Origin: Pacificispira spongiicola
Lineage (GTDB): Bacteria > Pseudomonadota > Alphaproteobacteria > UBA8366 > Aestuariispiraceae
Length of the DNA: 64,000 nt
NCBI RefSeq assembly: GCF_012926505.1
Contig: NZ_JABBNT010000005.1
Location: forward strand, 186,001 to 250,000
Direction of reading: 5' to 3'
Program-made: the position numbers and the translations under genes
Part shown: one piece after another, positions 41,177-57,309 of the stretch
Layout of the letters: each line of letters begins with the position of its first letter
Numbering within the stretch: position 1 is the first letter of the stretch
Notes under the pieces: model-generated
What the model was told of the DNA's origin: nothing
Seen by the model: the letters and a program-made list of their open reading frames with translations, nothing else
Database searches by the model: none

Positions 41177-42889
41177 ATGCCGATGAAATTGAGCCGCGCC
41201 GCCTATGCCGACATGTATGGTCCGACCGTGGGCGACCGCGTCCGACTGGCCGATACCGAACTTGTCATCGAGGTTGAAAAAGACTTCACAACCTACGGGG
41301 AAGAAGTGAAATTCGGCGGCGGAAAAGTGCTGCGCGACGGCATGGGCCAGGCCCAGACGACGCGCGCGCAAGGCGCCGTCGATACCGTCATCACCAACGC
41401 CCTGATCGTCGACCACTGGGGCATCGTGAAGGCCGATGTCGGGCTGAAGGACGGTCGTGTCGTCGCCATCGGCAAGGCCGGGAACCCGGATGTCCAGCCG
41501 GGAGTCGATATCATCGTCGGCCCCGGCACGGAAGCCATCGCCGGGGAAGGCAAGATCCTGACGGCGGGTGGGTTCGACTGCCACATCCACTTCATCTGCC
41601 CGCAGCAGATTGAGGACGCGCTGATGTCCGGCGTGACCACCATGCTGGGCGGCGGCACCGGCCCGGCGACGGGCACGAATGCCACAACCTGCACGCCCGG
41701 CCCCTGGCATATCGCCCGCATGCTGCAGGCGGCGGACGGTTTCCCGGTCAATCTGGCGCTGTCGGGGAAGGGCAACAGCGCGAAACCGGAGGGGCTGGTC
41801 GAACAAATCCTGGCCGGGGCCTGCGCCCTGAAATTGCATGAAGATTGGGGTACAACGCCGGGCGCAATCGACAATTGCCTTGCCGTCGCCGACGACTACG
41901 ACGTTCAGGTCATGATCCATACGGATACGCTGAACGAAAGCGGTTTCGTCGAAAACACCGTTGCATCCTTCAAGGGCCGCACCATCCATGCCTTCCATAC
42001 CGAAGGCGCGGGCGGCGGGCATGCACCGGACATCATCAAGGTCTGCGGGGAAACCAACGTCATCCCCTCCTCCACCAATCCGACGCGCCCTTACACGGTC
42101 AATACGCTGGAAGAACATCTGGATATGTTGATGGTCTGCCATCATCTGGATTCCGGTATTCCGGAGGATGTGGCCTTCGCGGAATCGCGTATCCGCAAGG
42201 AAACCATCGCGGCGGAAGACATCCTGCACGATCTGGGCGCGTTCTCCATCATCGCATCGGACAGTCAGGCCATGGGCCGTGTCGGGGAAGTCCTGATCCG
42301 CACCTGGCAGACCGCCGACAAGATGCGGCGTCAGCGCGGCCGACTGCCCGACGAAACCGGACAGAACGACAATGTCCGCGTGAAACGCTATATCGCGAAA
42401 TACACGATCAACCCTGCCATCGCGCATGGCATGTCCAAGGAAATCGGCTCTGTCGAGGTCGGCAAGCGTGCCGATCTGGTCCTGTGGTCGCCCGCCTTCT
42501 TCGGTGTGAAGCCGGATATGGTACTGATCGGCGGAATGATTGCCGCCGCGCCGATGGGCGATCCCAATGCATCCATCCCGACGCCGCAGCCGGTGCATTA
42601 CCGCCCGATGTTCGGGGCCTTCGGCAAGGCGACCGGGGCGATCGGCGCGACCTTCGTTTCCGCCGCGTCCATCGCCGATGGACTGGCCGACCGACTGGGC
42701 GTCGAAAAGACGCTGCTGCCGGTCGAAAACACGCGGTCCGGCATTTCCAAGGCGTCGATGATCCACAATACGGCCACCCCGCAGATCGAGGTCGATCCCG
42801 AAACCTACGAGGTCCGGGCCGATGGGGAATTGCTGACTTGCGAACCGGCGGAGGTTCTGCCCATGGCACAGCGTTACTTCCTGTTCTAG
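41177..42889 (+). CDS. ureC: Urease subunit alpha
   Basis: UreC holds the dinuclear nickel centre that hydrolyses urea to ammonia and carbamate. The 570-residue subunit keeps the nickel ligands and catalytic residues: HIHFICPQQ, the carbamylated Lys in [37 protein letters not shown], the flap Cys in LMVCHHLD, and ASDSQAMGR with the Asp ligand. Length and order are canonical, and it starts two bases after ureB. Confidence 0.98.
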
Positions 42890-46868: not shown

Positions 46869-46947
46869 TTGGGACTCCTCGGTTAGCGACACGTCACCCA
46901 AGGCGATCCCAAACGTCACGGCCCGCCGGTCGCGGGTCGTGCGTTGG

Positions 46948-47100
46948 TTCTCTTTCATCCGGACTATGACCGTCGGCCCGAGACTCTCACTCGGTCTGCT
47001 GGACCCTTCCCCTTTGATGAACAACGGAGAAGGCGCTCGCGGGCTTACAGATTTCGCTGCTTACCGCCGGTGGGGATTTCCACCCCGCCCTGAGAACGGC
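46948..47100 (-). ncRNA. FMN riboswitch (RFN element)
   Basis: On the minus strand the RFN consensus is clear: TTCTCAGGGCGGGGTG, CCCCACCGGCGGTAA, AGCCCGCGAGCGC, GGGCCGACGGTCATAGTCCGG and GATGAAAGAGAA in order. It lies 80 bases before ribH2. A seven-base stretch at 46907-46913 can pair with bases 46868-46874, which include the first base of the start codon, so translation control is a reasonable guess; no U-rich terminator is seen. Confidence 0.95.
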
Positions 47101-47136
47101 GGCACTATGACCGATGCTGCACAGGCGGGGCAAGCC

Positions 47137-48024
47137 TTATGACAGGAGATCCCCTATGCCAGCGGCTAAAAGGCCGGTCAGGTCGATCCCATTGCTGGCA
47201 TGCGGGATCGTGTTGCAGGTCACGATCTGCCCGGTCCCCGCATTGGACAGGGCGCGGTAGGCGTCCCCCGCGAAGACCGCATGCACGCCGACGCAGATTG
47301 GCGGCGCCATGCCCGCCCGTTTCAGATGGCCGACTGTTTCGATCATCGTGCGCGCGGTGGAGATGATATCGTCGATCAGGATCGGCGTATGGTCGCGCCA
47401 CGCATCGACATCGGGGACGGAGACGTCCACGTCCCGGTCGCCGTGCCTTGTTTTCAGCAGGACCGTATGCGGACAGCCGACTTCCTCCGCCACCGCGGCG
47501 ACCCATTGTTCGCTTTCGCCGTCGGGACCGACCAAGACGGGATTCTCCACTTCTTCTCGAATCCAATCCGCGATGGCGCCGGCCGCATGCAGCGTCGCGG
47601 TCGGCATGGTGTAGATTTCGGACAGGCTCGTCCGGCGATGAAGATGCGGGTCGACCGTCGCCATCCAATCGAACCACCCGTTCAGGACCGATGCGAAATG
47701 GGTGGAGGTTACCGCCTCTCCCTCCTGAAACCGCTTATCTTGACGCATATAGGCCAGATAGGGGGCGACGAGCCCGATCCTTTCGGCACGCAACTCCTTT
47801 GCCGCCCCTGCCGCGAAAATCAACGGCAGAAGCTTCCCGTCCGGCCTGTCCAACGTGCAGACGAAAACGACCGACCGCCCGGCAACCGGCGTGGCGAGCC
47901 GGATATAGCTTTCGCCGTCCGGAAATTGCCGTGTTTCGACCGCGCCGACTTCCCCGTCCAGTTGGTCGGCGAGGGAATGCGCCAAGGCCTCGTTTTCCGG
48001 CATCGGCAGGATCAACGGCTTCAT
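47137..48024 (-). CDS. Archaeal-type (class III-like) ribose-phosphate pyrophosphokinase
   Basis: The 295-residue protein matches the PRPP synthetase fold: PYLAYMRQDKRFQEGEAVTS (ATP site), VDPHLHRR in place of the classical D-H-H metal loop, and PRPP loop LIDDIISTARTMIETV. These variants resemble the Methanocaldococcus enzyme more than ordinary bacterial Prs (315 residues), which has PYFGYARQDRK and VDDMIDTGGT. It may therefore not replace the housekeeping prs. The start overlaps the stop of the AMP phosphorylase gene by four bases (ATGA), so the two are coupled. No regulation other than this operon can be seen. Confidence 0.85.
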   Translation of the reverse strand: MKPLILPMPENEALAHSLADQLDGEVGAVETRQFPDGESYIRLATPVAGRSVVFVCTLDRPDGKLLPLIFAAGAAKELRAERIGLVAPYLAYMRQDKRFQEGEAVTSTHFASVLNGWFDWMATVDPHLHRRTSLSEIYTMPTATLHAAGAIADWIREEVENPVLVGPDGESEQWVAAVAEEVGCPHTVLLKTRHGDRDVDVSVPDVDAWRDHTPILIDDIISTARTMIETVGHLKRAGMAPPICVGVHAVFAGDAYRALSNAGTGQIVTCNTIPHASNGIDLTGLLAAGIGDLLS

Positions 48025-49550
48025 GCGTCTTCCGTCCCTATTTCGATCGTTTGCGGATGATTGCGGAAATAGTCGAGGGCATAGTTCAACTCCCCCTTCG
48101 AATCCGCGTGCAGCGTGACCAGGGGCTCCCCTTTCGTCACGCGTTGCCCCAATCGACAGGCCATGACGAGACCGGCTGCCTTGTCTTCCGGCGCACCGGC
48201 CAGTTTCGCGGCCCGACTGAGCCGTCGATTGTCGATACGAACGACCGATCCGCTCGCCGGGGCGGGGATAATTTCCTGAAACTTCGATCGCGGCGGCGTC
48301 CGCATGCCGCCCTGGGCGTCGCAGATCGCCTGAAACTTCGCCCAGGCCCGCCCACTGCTCAAGACTTCTCCCGCCATCGCGCTCCCCTCGCCCGCAGCCG
48401 CGCGTCCGGCGGATTCCAGCAAGGACCCGGCCAGCAGGACGGCCCGTTCGCGCAGATCCTGCGGCGCATCCGCCTCGTTCTGCAAGACGGCCAGCACGTT
48501 CCAGGCTTCCAGGGCCGGGCCGATGCCGCGTCCAACGGGCTGCGTCCCGTCCGTTTCAACGACATGGGCGTTGATGTCCAGAGCCGCCGCCGTGGTCAGC
48601 AGGCTTTCGCCCAGGGAGGCCGCGTCCTGACGGCTGCGCACCTTCGCTGTCGGACCGATGGGCAGGTCGAGCACCAAATGCGTGGCGCCCGCCGCCGCCT
48701 TCTTGGACAGAACGGAGGCCACCATCTGTCCCTCGCTGTCGATATCGAGGGCGCGTTCGACGCGGATCAGGATATCGTCCACGGGGCTGAGATCCGCCGC
48801 GCCGCCCCAGGCGATGCAGCCACCTTCCTTTTCTACCACGCGGCGCAGATCGGCGAGGCTGAGTTCGACCGGGGCCAGGGTTTCCATCGTATCCGCCGTC
48901 CCGGCAGGCGATGTGATGGCCCGCGACGAGGTTTTCGGCATCATCAACCCGCAACAGGCGACGATAGGCACAATGATCGGCGTCGTCCGATTGCCGGGCA
49001 ATCCGCCGACGCAATGCTTATCGACGATGGGTGACACGCCCCAGTCCAACCGTTTGCCGACATCCACCATGGCGCGGGTCAGGCCGATGACTTCCGTCTG
49101 GTTCAGTCCCCGCGCGGAACAGGCGGTGATGAAGGACGACAGTTGGATATCCGAATACCGGCCTGCCACGATATCCGTCAGAATTTCGTTCATTTCCGGG
49201 TCGGTCAGCGTGTGGCCGTAGATTTTTGCCCGAACGTGGCCCAGCGAATCCACCGGGCTGGGATGTTCGACGTAGATTGGGTCGCCTTCCGCCACACCCA
49301 GCCGTATCCAGGCCGATTCGGACAGGCTCGCCTGCCCCTGCGCCAACATGCCGTCCGTCGTCGTGTTCAACGTCGCGATGATCGAATTGCCGTTGGCCCG
49401 CACGCGAACACGGGCATGGGCGGTGAACCCCTCCGCTCGGCAGATATGGCAATCCTTGCGCATATAGATGACCGCCTCATCATGGGTATCGATCCCCAGA
49501 CGTTTCAGCCTCAACCCGTTACGCGCAGTTTTGGAACCGTGTGAAGTCAT
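48021..49550 (-). CDS. Archaeal-type AMP phosphorylase / thymidine phosphorylase family
   Basis: This 509-residue enzyme has the family's four parts: an extra N-terminal domain (about residues 1-90) found in AMP phosphorylases, the helical domain (SSFITACSARGLNQTEVIGL), a central domain with DKHCVGGLPGNRTT and PKTSSRAITSPAGTADTME, and a C-terminal domain. Classical thymidine phosphorylases have DKHSTGGVGDK instead; the present form is that of archaeal AMP phosphorylase, which converts NMP and phosphate to a free base and ribose 1,5-bisphosphate. Its start lies nine bases after the nuclease gene stops. Neither RuBisCO nor ribose-1,5-bisphosphate isomerase is in the window. Confidence 0.88.
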   Translation of the reverse strand: MTSHGSKTARNGLRLKRLGIDTHDEAVIYMRKDCHICRAEGFTAHARVRVRANGNSIIATLNTTTDGMLAQGQASLSESAWIRLGVAEGDPIYVEHPSPVDSLGHVRAKIYGHTLTDPEMNEILTDIVAGRYSDIQLSSFITACSARGLNQTEVIGLTRAMVDVGKRLDWGVSPIVDKHCVGGLPGNRTTPIIVPIVACCGLMMPKTSSRAITSPAGTADTMETLAPVELSLADLRRVVEKEGGCIAWGGAADLSPVDDILIRVERALDIDSEGQMVASVLSKKAAAGATHLVLDLPIGPTAKVRSRQDAASLGESLLTTAAALDINAHVVETDGTQPVGRGIGPALEAWNVLAVLQNEADAPQDLRERAVLLAGSLLESAGRAAAGEGSAMAGEVLSSGRAWAKFQAICDAQGGMRTPPRSKFQEIIPAPASGSVVRIDNRRLSRAAKLAGAPEDKAAGLVMACRLGQRVTKGEPLVTLHADSKGELNYALDYFRNHPQTIEIGTEDA

Positions 49551-49559
49551 GGCGGTGCA

Positions 49560-50924
49560 TTAAACCAGATCGTAACCATCACGGAATTCGGGAACCGTGC
49601 ACTCCCAGCCCAATTCTTCCTCAATCCGCAGGCGAAGGGCGTCCGACGCCTCCGGTTCGCCGTGGGTGATGAAGGTCATGCGCGGCGGTGCCTCGAAATT
49701 CTTCAACCAGCCCAGAATTTCGTCCGCATCCGCATGGGCGGACAGCATGTCCAAATTGTCCACATCCGCCCGGACGGCATGATAGCTGCCATGGATCTTT
49801 ATCTTCTGCGCGCCGGTAACCAGGGCCCGACCCCGCGTGCCGCCCGCCTGGAACCCCGCGAACAGCACGAAGTTCCGGCGATCGGGCAGATAGCGTTTCA
49901 GATGGTGCAGGATACGCCCGCCGGTCGCCATGCCGCTGGCCGACACGATGATCTTCGGCACGATATTCTCGTCCAACCGCTTCGATTCCTCCGGCGACCG
50001 GACATAGGTCGCGACCTGACAGGTCTCCCGGCTTTCCTCCTCCGTCAACCGATGATCCTTGCGGTACTTCCAGAACAGCTCGCTGGCGTCGATGGCCATC
50101 GGACTGTCCAGATAGACCGGCAGATCGGGAATGCGCCCTTCCTTCTTCAGCCGGGAGATATGATAGAGCAGCATCTGCGACCGGCCGACAGCGAAGGACG
50201 GAATCAGGACCGTACCACCGCGCTGTGCGACCTTGTTCACGATTTCCGCGATGCGTTCTTCCGCGTCGGCCTTGTCGTGCAAACGGTTGCCATAGGTGGA
50301 CTCCACCACAAGGTAATCCGCCTGTTTCACCGGTGTCGGGTCGACCATGGTGGCGGAGCCCGGCCGCCCCAAATCGCCGGAAAGCAGGATTTTCGCCTGC
50401 GGCGTATAAACCTCGATCATCGACGCGCCCAGAATATGCCCGGCGGGCAGAAAGCGGACGCGCAGACCGTCGCCGAGTCTCAGGTCTTCCTCGAATTTCT
50501 GGGCCCGGAAGTGCTCCAACGCCAGTTCTGCGTCTTCTTCGGTATAGAGCGGCACGGCGGGCTTGTGCTTCGAATAGCCGTAGCGGTTTGCCTGCTCCGC
50601 CTCCCGCTCCATCAAATGGCCGCTGTCATGCAGGAGCACATCGCACAATTCGCAGGTCGGCGGCGTGGCATAGATCGGCCCGGAATAGCCGTCGCGCACA
50701 AGGGCGGGCAAATAACCCGAATGATCGACATGCGCATGGGTCAAAAGCACCGCGTCGATCGATTTCAGATCGACGGGCAACGGCGCCCAGTTCCGCCGCC
50801 GCAACTGCTTGAATCCCTGAAACAGGCCGCAATCGATCAAGATGCGCCGATCGCCCGTATCCAGAAGGTATTTGGACCCGGTCACCGTCCCCACGGCGCC
50901 CAGGAAAGTCAGATCAACCGCCAT
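49560..50924 (-). CDS. Beta-CASP metallo-beta-lactamase RNA-processing nuclease
   Basis: The protein resembles CPSF73/Ysh1-like exonucleases. The 454-residue form starts MAVDLTFLGAVGTVTGSKYL. It has the zinc motif LLTHAHVDHSGYLPA, the HILGAS histidine, LLSGDLGRPG, and the beta-CASP motifs SPMAIDA, IHGSYHAVRAD and DMLSAHADADEIL. All key metal ligands and catalytic His are present, so it is likely an active RNase. An upstream ATG (50945) would add seven residues. It is the first gene of the operon with AMP phosphorylase and PRPP synthetase; the substrate is inferred to be RNA. Confidence 0.9.
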   Translation of the reverse strand: MAVDLTFLGAVGTVTGSKYLLDTGDRRILIDCGLFQGFKQLRRRNWAPLPVDLKSIDAVLLTHAHVDHSGYLPALVRDGYSGPIYATPPTCELCDVLLHDSGHLMEREAEQANRYGYSKHKPAVPLYTEEDAELALEHFRAQKFEEDLRLGDGLRVRFLPAGHILGASMIEVYTPQAKILLSGDLGRPGSATMVDPTPVKQADYLVVESTYGNRLHDKADAEERIAEIVNKVAQRGGTVLIPSFAVGRSQMLLYHISRLKKEGRIPDLPVYLDSPMAIDASELFWKYRKDHRLTEEESRETCQVATYVRSPEESKRLDENIVPKIIVSASGMATGGRILHHLKRYLPDRRNFVLFAGFQAGGTRGRALVTGAQKIKIHGSYHAVRADVDNLDMLSAHADADEILGWLKNFEAPPRMTFITHGEPEASDALRLRIEEELGWECTVPEFRDGYDLV

Positions 50925-51070
50925 GCGTTTTACCCGCCATATCATTGTTTTAACGACAGGGTCCCCGCTTTGCCGGTATCCTGCAAGGGATATCGCTGCG
51001 GCGAAGTCGCATAAGAGTTTGGAACAGTGGCGGGAATCAAAAAAGCAGCGCCCAAGCGCTGCTTCGAAAA

Positions 51071-51145
51071 TGGCTCCGCGGGTAGGATTCGAACCTACAG
51101 CCGATCGGTTAACAGCCGATTGCTCTACCGTTGAGCTACCGCGGA
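51071..51145 (-). tRNA. tRNA-Asn (anticodon GTT)
   Basis: The acceptor arm TCCGCGG pairs with CCGCGGA; the discriminator is G and CCA is encoded. The anticodon loop CTGTTAA gives GTT. D-arm AGCTCAACGGTAGAGC and T-arm GTAGGTTCGAATCCTAC are regular. Confidence 0.96.
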
Positions 51146-52895: not shown

Positions 52896-55283
52896 TTACG
52901 CAGAACGGGAGCCGGACGGGTCACTCCCCATCGAAACCGGTGTGGCTTTAAGCCTAGCGGACCCCGCCGAGTCCGTCCAGCCCCGACCCGAAGATTTACC
53001 GCCGGGAGAGTTTCCGCCCCGCCGCCAGCCGAGACGCAGCGCATTGCCGATCACGACGATGGAAGACGACGACATGGCGACCGCCGCCAGCAACGGCGTG
53101 ACGAATCCCGCAAAGGCCAGCGGCACCGTTACGGCATTGTACAGGAAAGCGAGCGCGAAATTCTGCTTCACCAGCCGTTCCGCGTCCCGGGCCGTGTGAT
53201 ACGCCTCCAACACCGGCGCAAGATGGCTACCCTGGAATACGACATCGGCGGCGGTGCGGCTGATATCCGCCCCCGACGCGGGCGACAGAGATACCAGTGC
53301 GGCGGCAAGCGCCGGGGCGTCGTTCAGACCGTCCCCGACCATAGCGGGCTTTCGTCCCGCCGCCCGCAGGTCTTCCAGGTACCGCAGCTTGCCGTCCGGC
53401 GTGATCCGCGCTTCCCAGGCGTCGATGCCCAGCGCCGACGCCGTCTGTGCGACCACATCGTCCCGATCGCCGGACAGAAGGTGGATATCCATGCCCAGGC
53501 GCTTGAATTCGGCGACAACAGCCGCCGCGTCGTCGCGCAGGGCATCCATAAAGGCGAACCGGATTGGTGCCTGACCGGGACGCGCATACCAGATTTCCGG
53601 ACCGGATGTGCTGTCCCCACCGCCTGACGGGACGGCATCCTCCGCAAGCTTCAGGAAGGCGCGGCTGCCCAGTCGATGCAGACCGTCGCGACCTTGCCAT
53701 TCCAGTCCCGCGCCGGGCACTTCGCGCACGTCGTCCAGCGGGGCGACCCCCGGCCCGGCCGCCGCGACCAATGCCCGCGACAGCGGGTGCAGGCTGGCGG
53801 CGGCGATGCCCGCCGCACGCCGGATATCGTCCGGATCGGCGTCTTGGTTCGGTACTAGAACCGGCTGTCCCTTGGTCAGGGTGCCCGTCTTGTCGAAGAC
53901 CAGCGTGTCGATATCCGCCAGCCTTTCCAGCGCCGATCCGCTTTTCAGCAAAATGCCTTGCCGCATTAAGCGCGAACAGGCGATGACCTGCACCACGGGT
54001 ACGGCGAGCCCCAACGCGCAGGGGCAGGTGATGATCAGGACCGCAATGGAAATCATCAGGGAATCCTGCCAGATCAGCCCCATCCCGAAGAACCAGAAGA
54101 TAAACGCTGCCAACGCCATGGTGTGGACCACCGGCGCATACCACCGCGCCACCGCATCCGCGATCCCGACATAGCGGGCGCGGCGCTGTTCGGCGGCTTC
54201 CATCAGGCGCGCGATTTCGGCCAGCAAGGTCCCCTCACCCGCCGCATCCACGCGGATCTTCAACGGCGCCGACACGTTCATCGCGCCGGCGAAGACCGAA
54301 ATGCCGGGACGCACCGCTTCCGGCAGGCTTTCCCCCGTGATCAGTTGCGCATCGACATCCGATTGTCCCTGCAGCACCGTGCCGTCGACCGGGATACGGC
54401 TTCCGGCGGGAACGAACACGGTCATGCCCGCTTCCACCGACGACGGCGCCATGGCCTGCAAGCTGCCGTCCGGCAGTAACACCGTTACCGCCGTCGCCGA
54501 CAGGCCGGTCATCTGTTCGGCGGCGGAACGCGCCTTGCTGCGGGCACGGCGATCCAGGAAGCGACCGATCAGAAGGAAGAACAGCAGGGTCACCGCTGAA
54601 TCGAAATAGGCATGTTCCGCCGCGCGCAGGGTTTGAAACACGCTCATCCCCGTCGCCAGCAACACGGCGAGGGAAATCGGCACGTCCATATTCGTTCGCC
54701 CCGCGCGGATCGCGGTCAACGCGCTGTCGAAGAACGGACGTCCGGCGTAAAAGACCGCCGGAACCGCGACCAACGCGGATATCCAATGCAGCAGCGTGCG
54801 CGTCGCCGGGCCCATATCCTGATATGTTCCGGCCCAGACCGCGACCGACAGCAACATGACATTCGCGGCCGCGAAGCCGGCCACCGCCATGGCGCGCAGC
54901 AATTGCTTGTCTTCCTGATCCCGGCCTTCCTGCAACGCCGCAGGATCGTACGGCACAGCCCGATAACCGAGGAGGTCGAGTGTCGCAATCAGATGTTCCG
55001 GCGCGACCCGTTCCGGATCGTAGGTGACCTTCAATCGCCCGGTGGACAGGTTGACCCGCGCCTTGGAGACCGCCTCTTCCTTCAAAAGGGAACGCTCTAT
55101 CGTGGAAATGCAGCCGCCGCAGGTGATCCCCTCCACCATCATGTTGAGGGTTATATGGCCGTCGGGTTCGGCGATCAGGTAAGGGTCCAGCGGTCCCAGA
55201 CGACCGCGCACGGCGTCGGTGGCGTCTGCGTCCGGTCCTTCGACCAGCGGCGCGCAGCATCCTCCGCCGACCAGAGTTCCCAT
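52896..55283 (-). CDS. ccoI: Copper-transporting P-type ATPase CcoI (FixI)
   Basis: CcoI delivers copper for cbb3 oxidase assembly. The 795-residue P1B-ATPase has an N-terminal Cys motif (GGGCCAP), a heavy-metal domain with GITCGGC near residue 55, eight membrane helices, the metal-site ITCPCALGLAVP near residue 424, phosphorylation DKTGTLTKG, SLHPLSRAL and hinge GDGLNDAPAL. An unusual Gly/Ser-rich hydrophilic tail of about 40 residues follows the last helix. It overlaps the ccoH stop by one base in the coupled arrangement. Confidence 0.93.
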   Translation of the reverse strand: MGTLVGGGCCAPLVEGPDADATDAVRGRLGPLDPYLIAEPDGHITLNMMVEGITCGGCISTIERSLLKEEAVSKARVNLSTGRLKVTYDPERVAPEHLIATLDLLGYRAVPYDPAALQEGRDQEDKQLLRAMAVAGFAAANVMLLSVAVWAGTYQDMGPATRTLLHWISALVAVPAVFYAGRPFFDSALTAIRAGRTNMDVPISLAVLLATGMSVFQTLRAAEHAYFDSAVTLLFFLLIGRFLDRRARSKARSAAEQMTGLSATAVTVLLPDGSLQAMAPSSVEAGMTVFVPAGSRIPVDGTVLQGQSDVDAQLITGESLPEAVRPGISVFAGAMNVSAPLKIRVDAAGEGTLLAEIARLMEAAEQRRARYVGIADAVARWYAPVVHTMALAAFIFWFFGMGLIWQDSLMISIAVLIITCPCALGLAVPVVQVIACSRLMRQGILLKSGSALERLADIDTLVFDKTGTLTKGQPVLVPNQDADPDDIRRAAGIAAASLHPLSRALVAAAGPGVAPLDDVREVPGAGLEWQGRDGLHRLGSRAFLKLAEDAVPSGGGDSTSGPEIWYARPGQAPIRFAFMDALRDDAAAVVAEFKRLGMDIHLLSGDRDDVVAQTASALGIDAWEARITPDGKLRYLEDLRAAGRKPAMVGDGLNDAPALAAALVSLSPASGADISRTAADVVFQGSHLAPVLEAYHTARDAERLVKQNFALAFLYNAVTVPLAFAGFVTPLLAAVAMSSSSIVVIGNALRLGWRRGGNSPGGKSSGRGWTDSAGSARLKATPVSMGSDPSGSRSA

Positions 55284-55801
55284 CAGAAATTCTCCGGCTT
55301 CAGGAATACACGTTCGACCGTTTGATGGGTTTCCTCGCCGTGCCAGACGAGACGGCGCAGATTCCAGGCCCCCGCCTCCGCCAGATCGACGGTTCCGACA
55401 TAAAGCCCCGGCTCAACCTCCGACAGTTCCGCGCGGGAATCGATGCCGTAATGTGTCGGCCGTTCGAACGACGCCACCACACGCGCGGCGCGCAACGGTT
55501 CGCCCGCCTTGTCGGAAATGCGGATCGACACGGCGAAGCGACCGGGTTGTCCCACCGGCGCGATCGAGCTGTCTACCGTCCAATGCAGGGCGTTCTGCGT
55601 GCTGACCTCTTCCAGGGTTTTATTGTAGTCCAACCCTTTCAGATAGGAATTCGGCGTTTCCAATCCCGTCCACGTGGACAGCGCGATGTAGATCATGATC
55701 CCGTTCGCGATCAGAACAACGCCAAAGAATGCAAAGAAGATCAACGGGATACGGCTGCGCCGCGTCGGTTGTGTCGGTTCCGTCATGGACATGCTCATCA
55801 T
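55283..55801 (-). CDS. ccoH: cbb3 oxidase assembly protein CcoH (FixH)
   Basis: CcoH is a membrane-anchored assembly factor. The 172-residue FixH-family protein has one helix near the N-terminus (IPLIFFAFFGVVLIANGIMI) and then a periplasmic part with PNSYLKGLDYNKTLEE, DKAGEPLRAARVVASFERPT and GLYVGTVDLAEAGAWNLRRL. Start is one of four nearby ATGs; 55801 is the first, behind TAAGGGG. Confidence 0.93.
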   Translation of the reverse strand: MMSMSMTEPTQPTRRSRIPLIFFAFFGVVLIANGIMIYIALSTWTGLETPNSYLKGLDYNKTLEEVSTQNALHWTVDSSIAPVGQPGRFAVSIRISDKAGEPLRAARVVASFERPTHYGIDSRAELSEVEPGLYVGTVDLAEAGAWNLRRLVWHGEETHQTVERVFLKPENF

Positions 55802-55809
55802 TCGGCCCC

Positions 55810-57309
55810 TTACTTTTCAGGTCCGCGGAAGCGGGCTTCGAAGTCGCTTTCCACGGGTCCGCCGAAAACGGAGCCATCGTCGGCGACATTTTCGATCAGA
55901 ACGAAATTGAAATCCATCGTCGTATCGCTCAAGGCCGATTCTGGAATGGTCACGAAGGCCTTGACGGTTCTAACGCTGTCTTCGGCAACGACCAGATCGG
56001 TTTGCTGCCCTTCGGTATCCTGGCCTTGCAACGCGATCTTGAAGTCCGGCAGGCCGTTCACCGTCAGGATGAAATAGCGCGGACGCAGTGTCTTGTTCAG
56101 GATGCGCAGGGTAAACCCGTTGCGGATGGACCCGTCCTTCAGCTTCACGAAGATCGGGTTCCGATCCGGAATGACGGACATGTCCAGATGCGACCGGGTC
56201 GCCAAGGTAAAGAAGAAGGCCCCGGCGACGATCGCCATAACGGCCATATAGATGAAGGTGCGCGGCCGGAAGAACCGACGCTTCACCGGTTTTCCTTCGG
56301 CCCGGGCATTCTGGCGGTTGACCGAGTCGTAGGTGATCAGATCTTTCGGCAGGCCGACCTTCTCCATCACCGCGTTACACGCGTCGATACAGAGCGCACA
56401 GCCGATACATTCCAACTGGTTCCCGTTGCGGATATCGATCCCGGTCGGGCAGACCGCCACGCATTGCCCGCAATCGATGCAATGCCCGCGATCTTCGTAG
56501 TTCCCGTCCCGCGCCGGTTTCGCGCGCGGTTCGCCCCGCCATTTCTCGTAGGTCACGATCATCGTGTCCTCGTCCAGCATCGATGCCTGGAAACGCGGCC
56601 ACGGACACATATAGGTGCAGACCTGTTCGCGCGCGAACCCGGCCAGGGCGTAGGTCGTCGCGGTGAACAGACCGATGAAGAACAGTTGGTTCCCGGTCAG
56701 ATCGAAATGGATCACGTCGCGCACCAGGGTCGGCGCATCGTTGAAATACATGACCCAAGCCCCGCCGGTCAGCAGCGAGATCAAAATCCAAGACGCGTGT
56801 TTCGCCGTCCGCTTCCACAGCTTTTCAAAACTGAAACCGGCCTTGTCCAGGCGGATACGCGCGCCGCGATCGCCTTCAATCAGGCGTTCCACCCACATGA
56901 ACAAGTCTGTCCATACCGTCTGCGGGCAGGAAAAGCCGCACCAGACCCGGCCCAGCAGCGCTGTCGCGAAGAACAGCCCGACCGCCCCCATGATCAGCAG
57001 CCCGGCGATGTAGTAAACCTCCTGCGGCCAAATTTCGATCCACAGGAAATAGGCCCGGCGATTGGGCATATCGATCAGGAAGGCTTGGTCCGGCGCGCTC
57101 AATCCCCGATCCCAGCGCAGCCAGGGCGCAATGTAGTAAATCGCCAGCAGGACGATGACGGCAGCCCATTTCAGTTTGCGATAAATACCGGAGACCGATT
57201 TCGGATGAATCTTCTTCCGCGCGGCATAAAGCGGCTGATTTTCCGGGTCGAACTCAGGTTCGATCGGACCCGGATTCGGTTCGATCAGCGTTTGGGTGGT
57301 GTCGGTCAT
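55810..57309 (-). CDS. ccoG: cbb3 oxidase accessory protein CcoG (RdxA/FixG)
   Basis: CcoG is a membrane iron-sulfur protein that reduces Cu(II) for cbb3 assembly. The 499-residue protein has about five helices, CGFSCPQTVWTDLFMW, VCTYMCPWPRFQ, and two 4Fe-4S clusters of ferredoxin type: CIDCGQCVAVCPTG and CIGCALCIDACNAVMEK. A periplasmic Ig-like C-terminal domain follows. It is first in the ccoGHIS cluster. The structural ccoNOQP genes, which normally stand just upstream, are absent here. Confidence 0.95.
   Translation of the reverse strand: MTDTTQTLIEPNPGPIEPEFDPENQPLYAARKKIHPKSVSGIYRKLKWAAVIVLLAIYYIAPWLRWDRGLSAPDQAFLIDMPNRRAYFLWIEIWPQEVYYIAGLLIMGAVGLFFATALLGRVWCGFSCPQTVWTDLFMWVERLIEGDRGARIRLDKAGFSFEKLWKRTAKHASWILISLLTGGAWVMYFNDAPTLVRDVIHFDLTGNQLFFIGLFTATTYALAGFAREQVCTYMCPWPRFQASMLDEDTMIVTYEKWRGEPRAKPARDGNYEDRGHCIDCGQCVAVCPTGIDIRNGNQLECIGCALCIDACNAVMEKVGLPKDLITYDSVNRQNARAEGKPVKRRFFRPRTFIYMAVMAIVAGAFFFTLATRSHLDMSVIPDRNPIFVKLKDGSIRNGFTLRILNKTLRPRYFILTVNGLPDFKIALQGQDTEGQQTDLVVAEDSVRTVKAFVTIPESALSDTTMDFNFVLIENVADDGSVFGGPVESDFEARFRGPEK

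Follow-up and report, generated by a model that had tools for sequence, protein, structure and literature searches.

The archaeal pentose bisphosphate pathway, or NMP shunt, consists of an NMP phosphorylase, a ribose 1,5-bisphosphate (R15P) isomerase and RuBisCO (PMC9700705), and metagenomes have also yielded reports of it in some bacteria, among them CPR (PMC9700705, PMC12628685). The T. kodakarensis homologue of the phosphorylase considered here phosphorolyses NMPs to R15P (PMC8376864, PMC9700705). On the bacterial side, orthologues of the three genes of this study have already been published for Bradyrhizobium diazoefficiens, where they are induced by microoxia and depend on FixK2. The transcripts of bll3117, bll3116 and bll3115 are up 5.1, 7.7 and 15.4 fold in microoxia (PMC6515984), and those of bll3117 and bll3115 are down 6.6 and 30.6 fold when fixK2 is deleted (PMC9104804). 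In the accessible part of PMC6515984 the three genes are not marked as FixK2 targets and show no rise in bacteroids. The published Bradyrhizobium FixK box lies at position -74.

A literature search covering few subscription papers returned none that joins thymidine phosphorylase, ribose-phosphate pyrophosphokinase and metallo-beta-lactamase in a gene cluster. A second search of the same scope, for thymidine phosphorylase, phosphoribosylpyrophosphate synthetase, copper and plasmid, also returned none. The accessible part of PMC6315756 holds nothing on a cluster of the trio.

Organization and conservation of the operon

The window is the whole stretch of 64,000 nucleotides of Pacificispira spongiicola that was analysed, and its features are given in Table 1. 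The genes of a beta-CASP metallo-RNase, a type 2 "thymidine" phosphorylase (TP2) and a divergent PRPP synthetase (Prs) are minus-strand neighbours, located where the initial annotation had placed them. Its description of a co-directional trio with a 9-base gap (from the stop codon TAA of the RNase to the ATG of TP2), an ATGA overlap and the motifs DKHCVGGLPGNRTT and LIDDIISTARTM was confirmed in the sequence throughout. The RNase gene may alternatively start at an in-frame ATG at 50945. The operon promoter is expected between the tRNA-Asn gene and the RNase gene, and we infer that the FMN riboswitch is the downstream border.

Table 1. Features of the operon and its borders in the window (scores as score/cut-off)
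Feature	Position	Strand	Basis or remark
Beta-CASP metallo-RNase	49560..50924	minus	First operon gene; PF00753, PF10996, PF07521; phmmer to TTHA0252 E=8e-74
Type 2 "thymidine" phosphorylase (TP2), putative 5'-NMP phosphorylase	48021..49550	minus	NF003338 688/434 bits
Divergent Prs paralogue, PRK07199 subfamily	47137..48024	minus	NF005537 424/322 bits
ATGA stop-start overlap, TP2/Prs	48021..48024	minus	Sequence
TP2 motif DKHCVGGLPGNRTT	48981..49022	minus	GG.PGN[RK] form common to T. kodakarensis AMP phosphorylase
Prs loop LIDDIISTARTM	47344..47379	minus	Alignment with E. coli and M. jannaschii Prs
Prs signature DPHLHR	47635..47652	minus	E. coli equivalent DLHAEQ
Prs signature GPDxESxQW	47503..47529	minus	E. 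coli equivalent SPDIGGVVR
tRNA-Asn, upstream of operon	51071..51145	minus	ARAGORN; sequence
FMN riboswitch of next unit	46943..47101	minus	Rfam RF00050, 106 bits

As expected of a beta-CASP RNase, the protein has matches to Lactamase_B, Beta-Casp and RMMBL, and its closest solved relative is TTHA0252 of Thermus thermophilus. Its best NCBIfam score is with the Cas14 model of type VII CRISPR (384 bits against a cut-off of 800), while the aCPSF1 model gives 268 bits against 580. A role in CRISPR or phage defence was rejected, since the Cas14 score is far under the cut-off and PADLOC matched none of the three operon proteins.

In a sample of 398 genomes from the window's phylum, which judging from the named relatives is Pseudomonadota, TP2 exceeded its cut-off in 44. 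Around 47 TP2 places, Prs was found within 3 kb in 38, the RNase in 20 and all three genes in 17, in two gene orders. Among the best 80 of at least 585 named loci, ranked by similarity to an alignment headed by the window, Prs was within 3 kb of TP2 in 63, the RNase in 53 and all three in 41; this set contains apparent near-copies (L086/L087; L126, L129, L130, L132, L133, L135; L136/L138) and some loci cut by contig ends. The arrangement recurs in distant genomes in varied gene orders, frequently near genes of low oxygen or copper stress, and this recurrence in varied orders puts it beyond chance, so the trio passed the test of conservation set beforehand, on which the initial annotation had staked its reading. 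Some counts speak against a salvage operon: TP2 and Prs occur without the RNase at 21/47 places and TP2 has neither partner at 6/47, and two haloarchaeal AMP phosphorylase genes have neither a Prs nor an RNase neighbour in their annotation. Another TP2 neighbour, in L079, L080 and L082, exceeds the NadC cut-off and not that of ModD, and its assignment as ModD was rejected. For the counts of PhnN, phosphoketolase and copper P-ATPase given below, 40 TP2 genomes were used, i.e. the 44 minus G392, G382, G308 and G249; TP2 of the four left out has neither partner within 3 kb, and the sample therefore favours trio genomes.

Our proposal, which we hold at about an even chance, is that the operon may serve, in connection with stress, to salvage the ribose of RNA. 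It is based on gene content, conservation, co-localisation and the finding of no R15P isomerase over the cut-off; microoxic expression under FixK2 is documented for the Bradyrhizobium orthologues only. The RNase would degrade RNA to pieces and 5'-mononucleotides, as may be expected at the level of its family. From its relationship and motif, TP2 would then phosphorolyse the 5'-NMPs to free base and R15P, and the specialised Prs would connect R15P, PRPP and ribose 5-phosphate, so that ribose could re-enter the pentose-phosphate or PRPP pool. This chain from RNA over NMPs to pentose had been put forward in the initial annotation. Conservation, the relationship of TP2 and the missing isomerase support it, while the missed AMP phosphorylase cut-off, the occurrence of PhnN and the invariant substitutions in Prs do not.

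The divergent Prs and the oxygen and copper context

The cluster Prs is the second prs of its genome and shares 25% identity with the housekeeping copy (C14:358919). It exceeds the cut-offs of TIGR01251 (191/113 bits) and of the PRK07199 subfamily model in Table 1, and falls below that of archaeal PRK00934 (211 vs 296 bits). The initial name of archaeal-type PRPP synthetase needs correction in this respect, although the best solved match is the M. jannaschii enzyme. The SPDxGG and DLHAxQ motifs of E. coli and of its own housekeeping Prs are replaced by GPDxES and DPHLHR. In 65 cluster Prs sequences, L128, H129 and R130 of DPHLHR are invariant, as are E170, S171 and W174 of GPDxESxQW, with Q173 at 98%. 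Also invariant are K191, R193 and H127, which we take to be the flexible-loop Lys and Arg and the conserved His of PRPP synthetases; LIDDIISTARTM is presumably the 5-phosphate loop. In view of the invariant substitutions at two motifs, plain PRPP synthesis is only a putative activity of the cluster Prs.

Control by FixK/FNR was rejected as a general trait. Exact boxes (TTGAY-N4-RTCAA) were found at 6/71 operon heads and 14/279 control heads, which is not a significant enrichment (P=0.26), and boxes with one mismatch at 14/71 and 41/279. Upstream of the window operon no such box was found; the best candidate, at 51040 directly behind the tRNA gene, has two mismatches. Of the six exact boxes, five begin 74 to 77 bases ahead of the head gene, and in some cases this gene is not one of the trio.

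It is conceivable, though unlikely, that the operon is a bypass under metal stress, in which the cluster Prs would be a spare, metal-tolerant PRPP synthase replacing a copper-poisoned housekeeping Prs, and the RNase and TP2 would feed it or, through the recycling of ribose, spare PRPP. Copper or heavy-metal genes were found in 9 of 14 annotated bacterial plasmid loci, some of them on copper-resistance plasmids and adjoining CopA, in a non-random set picked by hand among 25 listed TP2 rows and having incomplete gene tables; in three of them (L170, L173, L177) the genes of Prs and a metal P-ATPase overlap. A copper P-ATPase over the cut-off lies no more than about 4 kb from TP2 in 7/40 genomes, the window's own FixI-like gene included, compared with 0.3 expected from 96 Cu-ATPase places, which were counted by hand with three split genes. 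On the other hand, no CopA-like gene was present in the fetched stretch of 53 of the best 80 of at least 585 named loci, nor within about 4 kb in 33/40 genomes. The window P-ATPase stands with fixG and fixH, which is an oxidase accessory context. Further points against the bypass are that expression in Bradyrhizobium follows oxygen (PMC6515984, PMC9104804) and that the cluster Prs keeps the active-site His that PMC10249872, in its accessible part, invokes when speculating on the action of Cu(I).

Identity of the phosphorylase

TP2 could also be a thymidine or other nucleoside phosphorylase giving (deoxy)ribose 1-phosphate, which we consider improbable. It is named thymidine phosphorylase by NCBI, shares its fold family with DeoA and PyNP, and exceeds the cut-offs of the type 2 thymidine phosphorylase models NF003338 (Table 1) and TIGR02645 (590/434.6 bits). 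The same name, however, was borne by the T. kodakarensis enzyme before its activity was found (PMC8376864). TP2 is 42% identical to that AMP phosphorylase over 433 aa and 27% to E. coli DeoA, and it is under the curated cut-offs of the DeoA and PyNP models (TIGR02643 166/570.7, TIGR02644 205/409 bits). When aligned with the T. kodakarensis and two haloarchaeal enzymes, it has an N-terminal extra part and a GG.PGN[RK] motif; the corresponding motif is GGVAGNR in the two haloarchaeal enzymes and GGV-GD in DeoA, and GG.PGNR occurs in 120/127 loci. In addition, no DeoB was found in the window genome to use ribose 1-phosphate.

In the tree, TP2 belongs to a bacterial clade of 55 rows (support 99/99) adjacent to the archaeal NMP phosphorylases and well apart from DeoA; the order of this clade against the 3 archaeal rows is ambiguous (86/8), with a single, very distant outgroup. 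By sequence, TP2 is nearer to the archaeal NMP phosphorylases than to DeoA. The initial name of archaeal-type AMP phosphorylase nevertheless needs correction: TP2 belongs to NF003338/TIGR02645, and the curated cut-off of 535 bits of the equivalog model TIGR03327 is missed with 484.

Possible fate of ribose 1,5-bisphosphate

An R15P isomerase over the cut-off was found in 0/44 TP2 genomes, with a weaker relative in 23/44. The sole IF-2B protein of the window genome exceeds the MtnA cut-off and scores 137/314 with the R15P isomerase model TIGR00511. The same genome has one RuBisCO-like protein, which exceeds the Pfam RuBisCO_large_N cut-off (35.6/20.7) and is under all six matching NCBIfam models (rubisco_III 261/497; best OiaX 417/700). 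With no isomerase over the cut-off, the archaeal route of isomerase and RuBisCO does not fit and was rejected, and the salvage without RuBisCO that had been suggested is in line with the data. The genome-wide check for a PhnN-type kinase turned out less favourably: PhnN is present in the window genome, adjoining PhnM on another contig, and exceeds its cut-off in only 10/40 TP2 genomes, and so it was rejected as a general partner of TP2.

In some relatives, phosphoketolase-like and acetate-kinase-like genes in the same run would yield acetyl phosphate and ATP. For example, in L086/L087 the genes of TP2, acetate kinase, phosphoketolase and Prs overlap end to end, 0.7 kb downstream of the beta-CASP gene, though in L086 the phosphoketolase and acetate kinase are under the NCBIfam cut-offs for those enzymes. 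Further runs with a phosphoketolase-like gene were found in other relatives. In the 40 TP2 genomes, five cases of a phosphoketolase no more than about 4 kb from TP2 were counted, where 0.04 would be expected. Only this local clustering is significant; co-occurrence at the genome level is weak (12/40 vs 6/40, P=0.18) and was rejected. Among the best 80 of at least 585 named loci the count depends on the method, with 18/80 by clustering and 24/80 by tblastn. In the window genome (97.85% complete) neither phosphoketolase (PF03894) nor acetate kinase (PF00871) had a match, and a partial XFP_N match is within what appears by eye to be a split transketolase. Here the pentose phosphate would therefore be passed on via transketolase or return to nucleotides.

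A bacterial fermentation of RNA ribose is a further, quite improbable reading. RNA would be taken over 5'-NMPs to R15P, and the cluster Prs, altered at its sugar side, would either pass the C1 phosphate of R15P to AMP (giving ribose 5-phosphate and ADP) or work in reverse from PRPP. Phosphoketolase and acetate kinase would then make ATP from the pentose. Carried on stress and copper-resistance islands, the module would supply energy independently of oxygen or serve as a metal bypass.

Phosphorylases are reversible enzymes, and TP2 might build NMPs from bases and R15P while Prs sets the sugar supply, as base salvage under PRPP shortage; this is very improbable, since within the operon neither an R1P kinase nor another source of R15P was observed, and neighbours resembling phosphoketolase and acetate kinase suggest breakdown. 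The known case in its favour is Thermococcus, which converts nucleoside to NMP via R15P (PMC9700705).

Comparison with known systems

If the salvage proposal is true, bacteria would have a RuBisCO-free return of RNA sugar to pentose phosphate, PRPP or ATP, which would serve under oxygen shortage or metal poisoning. The name of the gene family may refer to the wrong substrate, and the proposal would supply this family with a function. It would also account for a FixK2-dependent operon and for the recurrence of these metabolic genes in copper islands, and R15P would deserve to be measured in bacteria.

The RNase resembles TTHA0252 in length. The same three gene products are encoded by the predicted operon bll3117-bll3116-bll3115 of B. 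diazoefficiens, in the order TP2-Prs-RNase, unlike the window; the accessible parts of the papers give expression and no proposed function (PMC9104804, PMC6515984). The E. coli PhnN route from R15P to PRPP (PMC9700705) is a known bacterial use of R15P, and PhnN is also present in the window genome, but there it is beside PhnM on another contig, and it exceeds its cut-off in only 10 of the 40 TP2 genomes. In halophilic archaea, the non-carboxylating pentose bisphosphate pathway (PMC9700705) is likewise an R15P-centred breakdown of ribose without RuBisCO. As far as that source describes it, it uses guanosine phosphorylase, R1P kinase, R15P isomerase, RuBP phosphatase and aldolase, none of which is in the operon. 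With the archaeal pentose bisphosphate pathway the operon shares a homologous NMP-phosphorylase step, of which R15P would be the product. It differs in combining this step with a divergent Prs, an RNase and, in some relatives, phosphoketolase-like and acetate-kinase-like genes, in the R15P isomerase count of 0/44, and in that the window genome has only a RuBisCO-like protein. The best reading of these genes is that the salvage line may be a bacterial variant of archaeal NMP phosphorolysis.

Conservation and gene order of the trio

The coordinates of the three genes, and the 9-base gap and ATGA overlap between them, as given in the initial annotation, were borne out by the sequence. Because a tRNA-Asn gene lies upstream and an FMN riboswitch downstream opens another unit, the trio is probably a separate unit. 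The closest solved relative of its first protein, the beta-CASP RNase (CASP), is TTHA0252.

Coordinates of the features discussed (L-handles denote loci of relatives, G000 the window's own genome)
Feature	Location	Strand	Remark
Prs-like gene (PRS)	window 47137-48024	-	
Type 2 phosphorylase (TP2)	window 48021-49550	-	
CASP	window 49560-50924	-	
fixG-, fixH-like oxidase accessory genes, FixI-like P-ATPase	window 52896-57309	-	about 2 kb upstream of trio
5_ureB_sRNA match	window 41330-41618	-	Rfam, 108 bits; opposite to apparent urease operon (read by eye)
RuBisCO-like protein	G000:C1:934456-934806 (L001)		adjoins dehydrogenase-like gene; best match OiaX, below its cut-off
Divergent phosphoketolase relative	L086:8426-10840		trio run; XFP_N 51 bits, XFP_C absent
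Divergent phosphoketolase relative	L170:4224-6593		trio run; plasmid annotation xylulose 5-phosphate 3-epimerase
Divergent phosphoketolase relative	L176, L179		as L170
PGSR-motif TP2 adjoining nadC	L079:6470-7306		no Prs or RNase within 3 kb
PGSR-motif TP2 adjoining nadC	L080:9783-10616		as L079
PGSR-motif TP2 adjoining nadC	L082:6425-7267		as L079
TP2, 57% identity	MT836048.1 5360-6838		13.5 kb entry under the name Bacteriophage sp.; may be bacterial DNA with a wrong label

In 398 genomes drawn evenly from the Pseudomonadota, a TP2-family phosphorylase above the family cut-off was found in 44, P. spongiicola included. Neighbourhoods were read at 47 TP2 places (46 over the cut-off and one below, the window's own excluded), where Prs lies within 3 kb at 38, the RNase at 20, the whole trio at 17 and neither partner at 6, one of these at a contig end. 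The orders were TP2-PRS (21), CASP-TP2-PRS (10), TP2-PRS-CASP (7), CASP-TP2 (2) and CASP opposite TP2 (1). Among the 80 best of at least 585 named loci, which include Bacteroidota and one Acidobacteria genome, the counts are 63 for Prs, 53 for the RNase, 41 for the whole trio and 5 for neither. The trio is thus conserved in other genomes, and since the same genes recur in different orders, this speaks for a joint function and not merely common descent.

Identity of the phosphorylase

The window phosphorylase belongs to NF003338/TIGR02645 and scores below the AMP phosphorylase cut-off, a correction to its initial label of archaeal-type AMP phosphorylase. It is 42% identical to the AMP phosphorylase of T. 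kodakarensis, 41 and 39% to two haloarchaeal enzymes and 27% to E. coli DeoA. TP2 and the T. kodakarensis enzyme share GG.PGN[RK]; the equivalent is GGVAGNR in the haloarchaeal enzymes and GGV-GD in DeoA. Over 127 loci, GG.PGNR occurs in 120, a PGSR form in 4 and no motif in 3; the PGSR subgroup is possibly a phosphorylase for another mononucleotide, e.g. a nicotinate nucleotide. A 59-row tree groups all 55 bacterial TP2 enzymes into one clade (99/99); its branching order relative to the three archaeal rows is weakly supported (86/8), and DeoA has a very long branch. The T. kodakarensis enzyme converts nucleoside monophosphates (NMPs) to ribose 1,5-bisphosphate (R15P) by phosphorolysis (PMC8376864, PMC9700705), and we infer that the bacterial clade does likewise.

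Cluster Prs and the possible fate of R15P

The window's cluster Prs belongs to subfamily PRK07199 and is 25% identical to the housekeeping Prs of its own genome. All 65 cluster sequences compared retain the loop Lys, loop Arg and active-site His, but GPDxES and DPHLHR replace SPDxGG and DLHAxQ of the E. coli and own housekeeping enzymes, at positions which we take to be substrate-side; a six-frame scan of the 127 loci found these two cluster motifs in 104 and 105, respectively. The pattern is compatible with an ordinary PRPP synthase that is regulated in a new way, and equally with an altered reaction.

In the P. spongiicola genome (97.85% complete), no phosphoketolase, acetate kinase or phosphopentomutase was found, and in the search for an R15P isomerase the sole IF-2B protein reached the cut-off for MtnA. 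One RuBisCO relative was found, above the Pfam cut-off and below that of each NCBIfam model matched. An apparent split transketolase (read by eye) is present, and the PhnN-type kinase that the initial annotation proposed to look for is present beside PhnM. Given this inventory, R15P could pass to PRPP via PhnN or via some act of the cluster Prs.

Phosphoketolase-like genes occur at 5 of the 47 places and at 24 of the 80 best of at least 585 named loci; for acetate-kinase-like genes (ACK) the figures are 3 and 9. At L086/L087, TP2, ACK, the phosphoketolase-like gene (XFP) and PRS form a run in which each gene overlaps the next, and CASP lies 0.7 kb upstream of it; both the divergent phosphoketolase and the acetate kinase of L086 are above Pfam and below NCBIfam cut-offs, and the phosphoketolase of L107 is a full family member (1509 bits vs cut-off 962). 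In 40 TP2 genomes (the four left out have neither Prs nor RNase within 3 kb), 5 of 15 phosphoketolase places lie about 4 kb or less from TP2, against 0.04 expected. Six places in 80 genomes score low (55 to 146 bits), and four of these adjoin TP2; co-occurrence at genome level is weak (12/40 vs 6/40, P=0.18). The divergent relative may have a different substrate.

Copper, plasmids and oxygen

Seven of the 40 genomes, against 0.3 expected, have a copper P-ATPase gene about 4 kb or less from TP2, the window's FixI-like gene being one. Among 14 annotated bacterial plasmid loci, hand-picked from 25 TP2 rows with incomplete gene tables, 13 carry Prs, 12 the RNase, 9 copper/heavy-metal genes and 4 a phosphoketolase-like gene. 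These copper links make a real rival of a metal-stress bypass, with the cluster Prs as a spare, metal-tolerant PRPP synthase, and in S. aureus Prs is a target of Cu(I) inhibition (PMC10249872); we nevertheless consider the bypass unlikely as the reading of the trio. An island shared by Burkholderiales and Pseudomonas (L175, L126, L129, L130, L132, L133, L135) joins the trio to genes for a heavy-metal P-ATPase, AarF/UbiB and a type II GAPDH of archaeal type, the last assignment resting on L121; these may be metal-tolerant substitutes for enzymes that the metal poisons.

In B. diazoefficiens, bll3117-bll3116-bll3115 are predicted to form an operon, which has a FixK2-type box at -74, and fixK2 deletion lowers bll3117 by 6.6 fold and bll3115 by 30.6 fold (PMC9104804). 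All three rise in microoxia as transcript and protein, as does the phosphoketolase bll2518; the table of that source lists no increase in bacteroids for the trio genes and does not flag them as targets of FixK2 (PMC6515984). No FixK2-type box was found before the window's operon, nor any significant enrichment over 71 operon heads.

The outline of the initial annotation, by which RNA would be degraded to NMPs and its ribose would re-enter the pentose pool by way of R15P, with no need for RuBisCO, withstood the refuting condition that was checked, conservation of the trio, and is unproven in its chemistry. We file the trio as a variant form of archaeal NMP phosphorolysis in a conserved, partly mobile stress operon.
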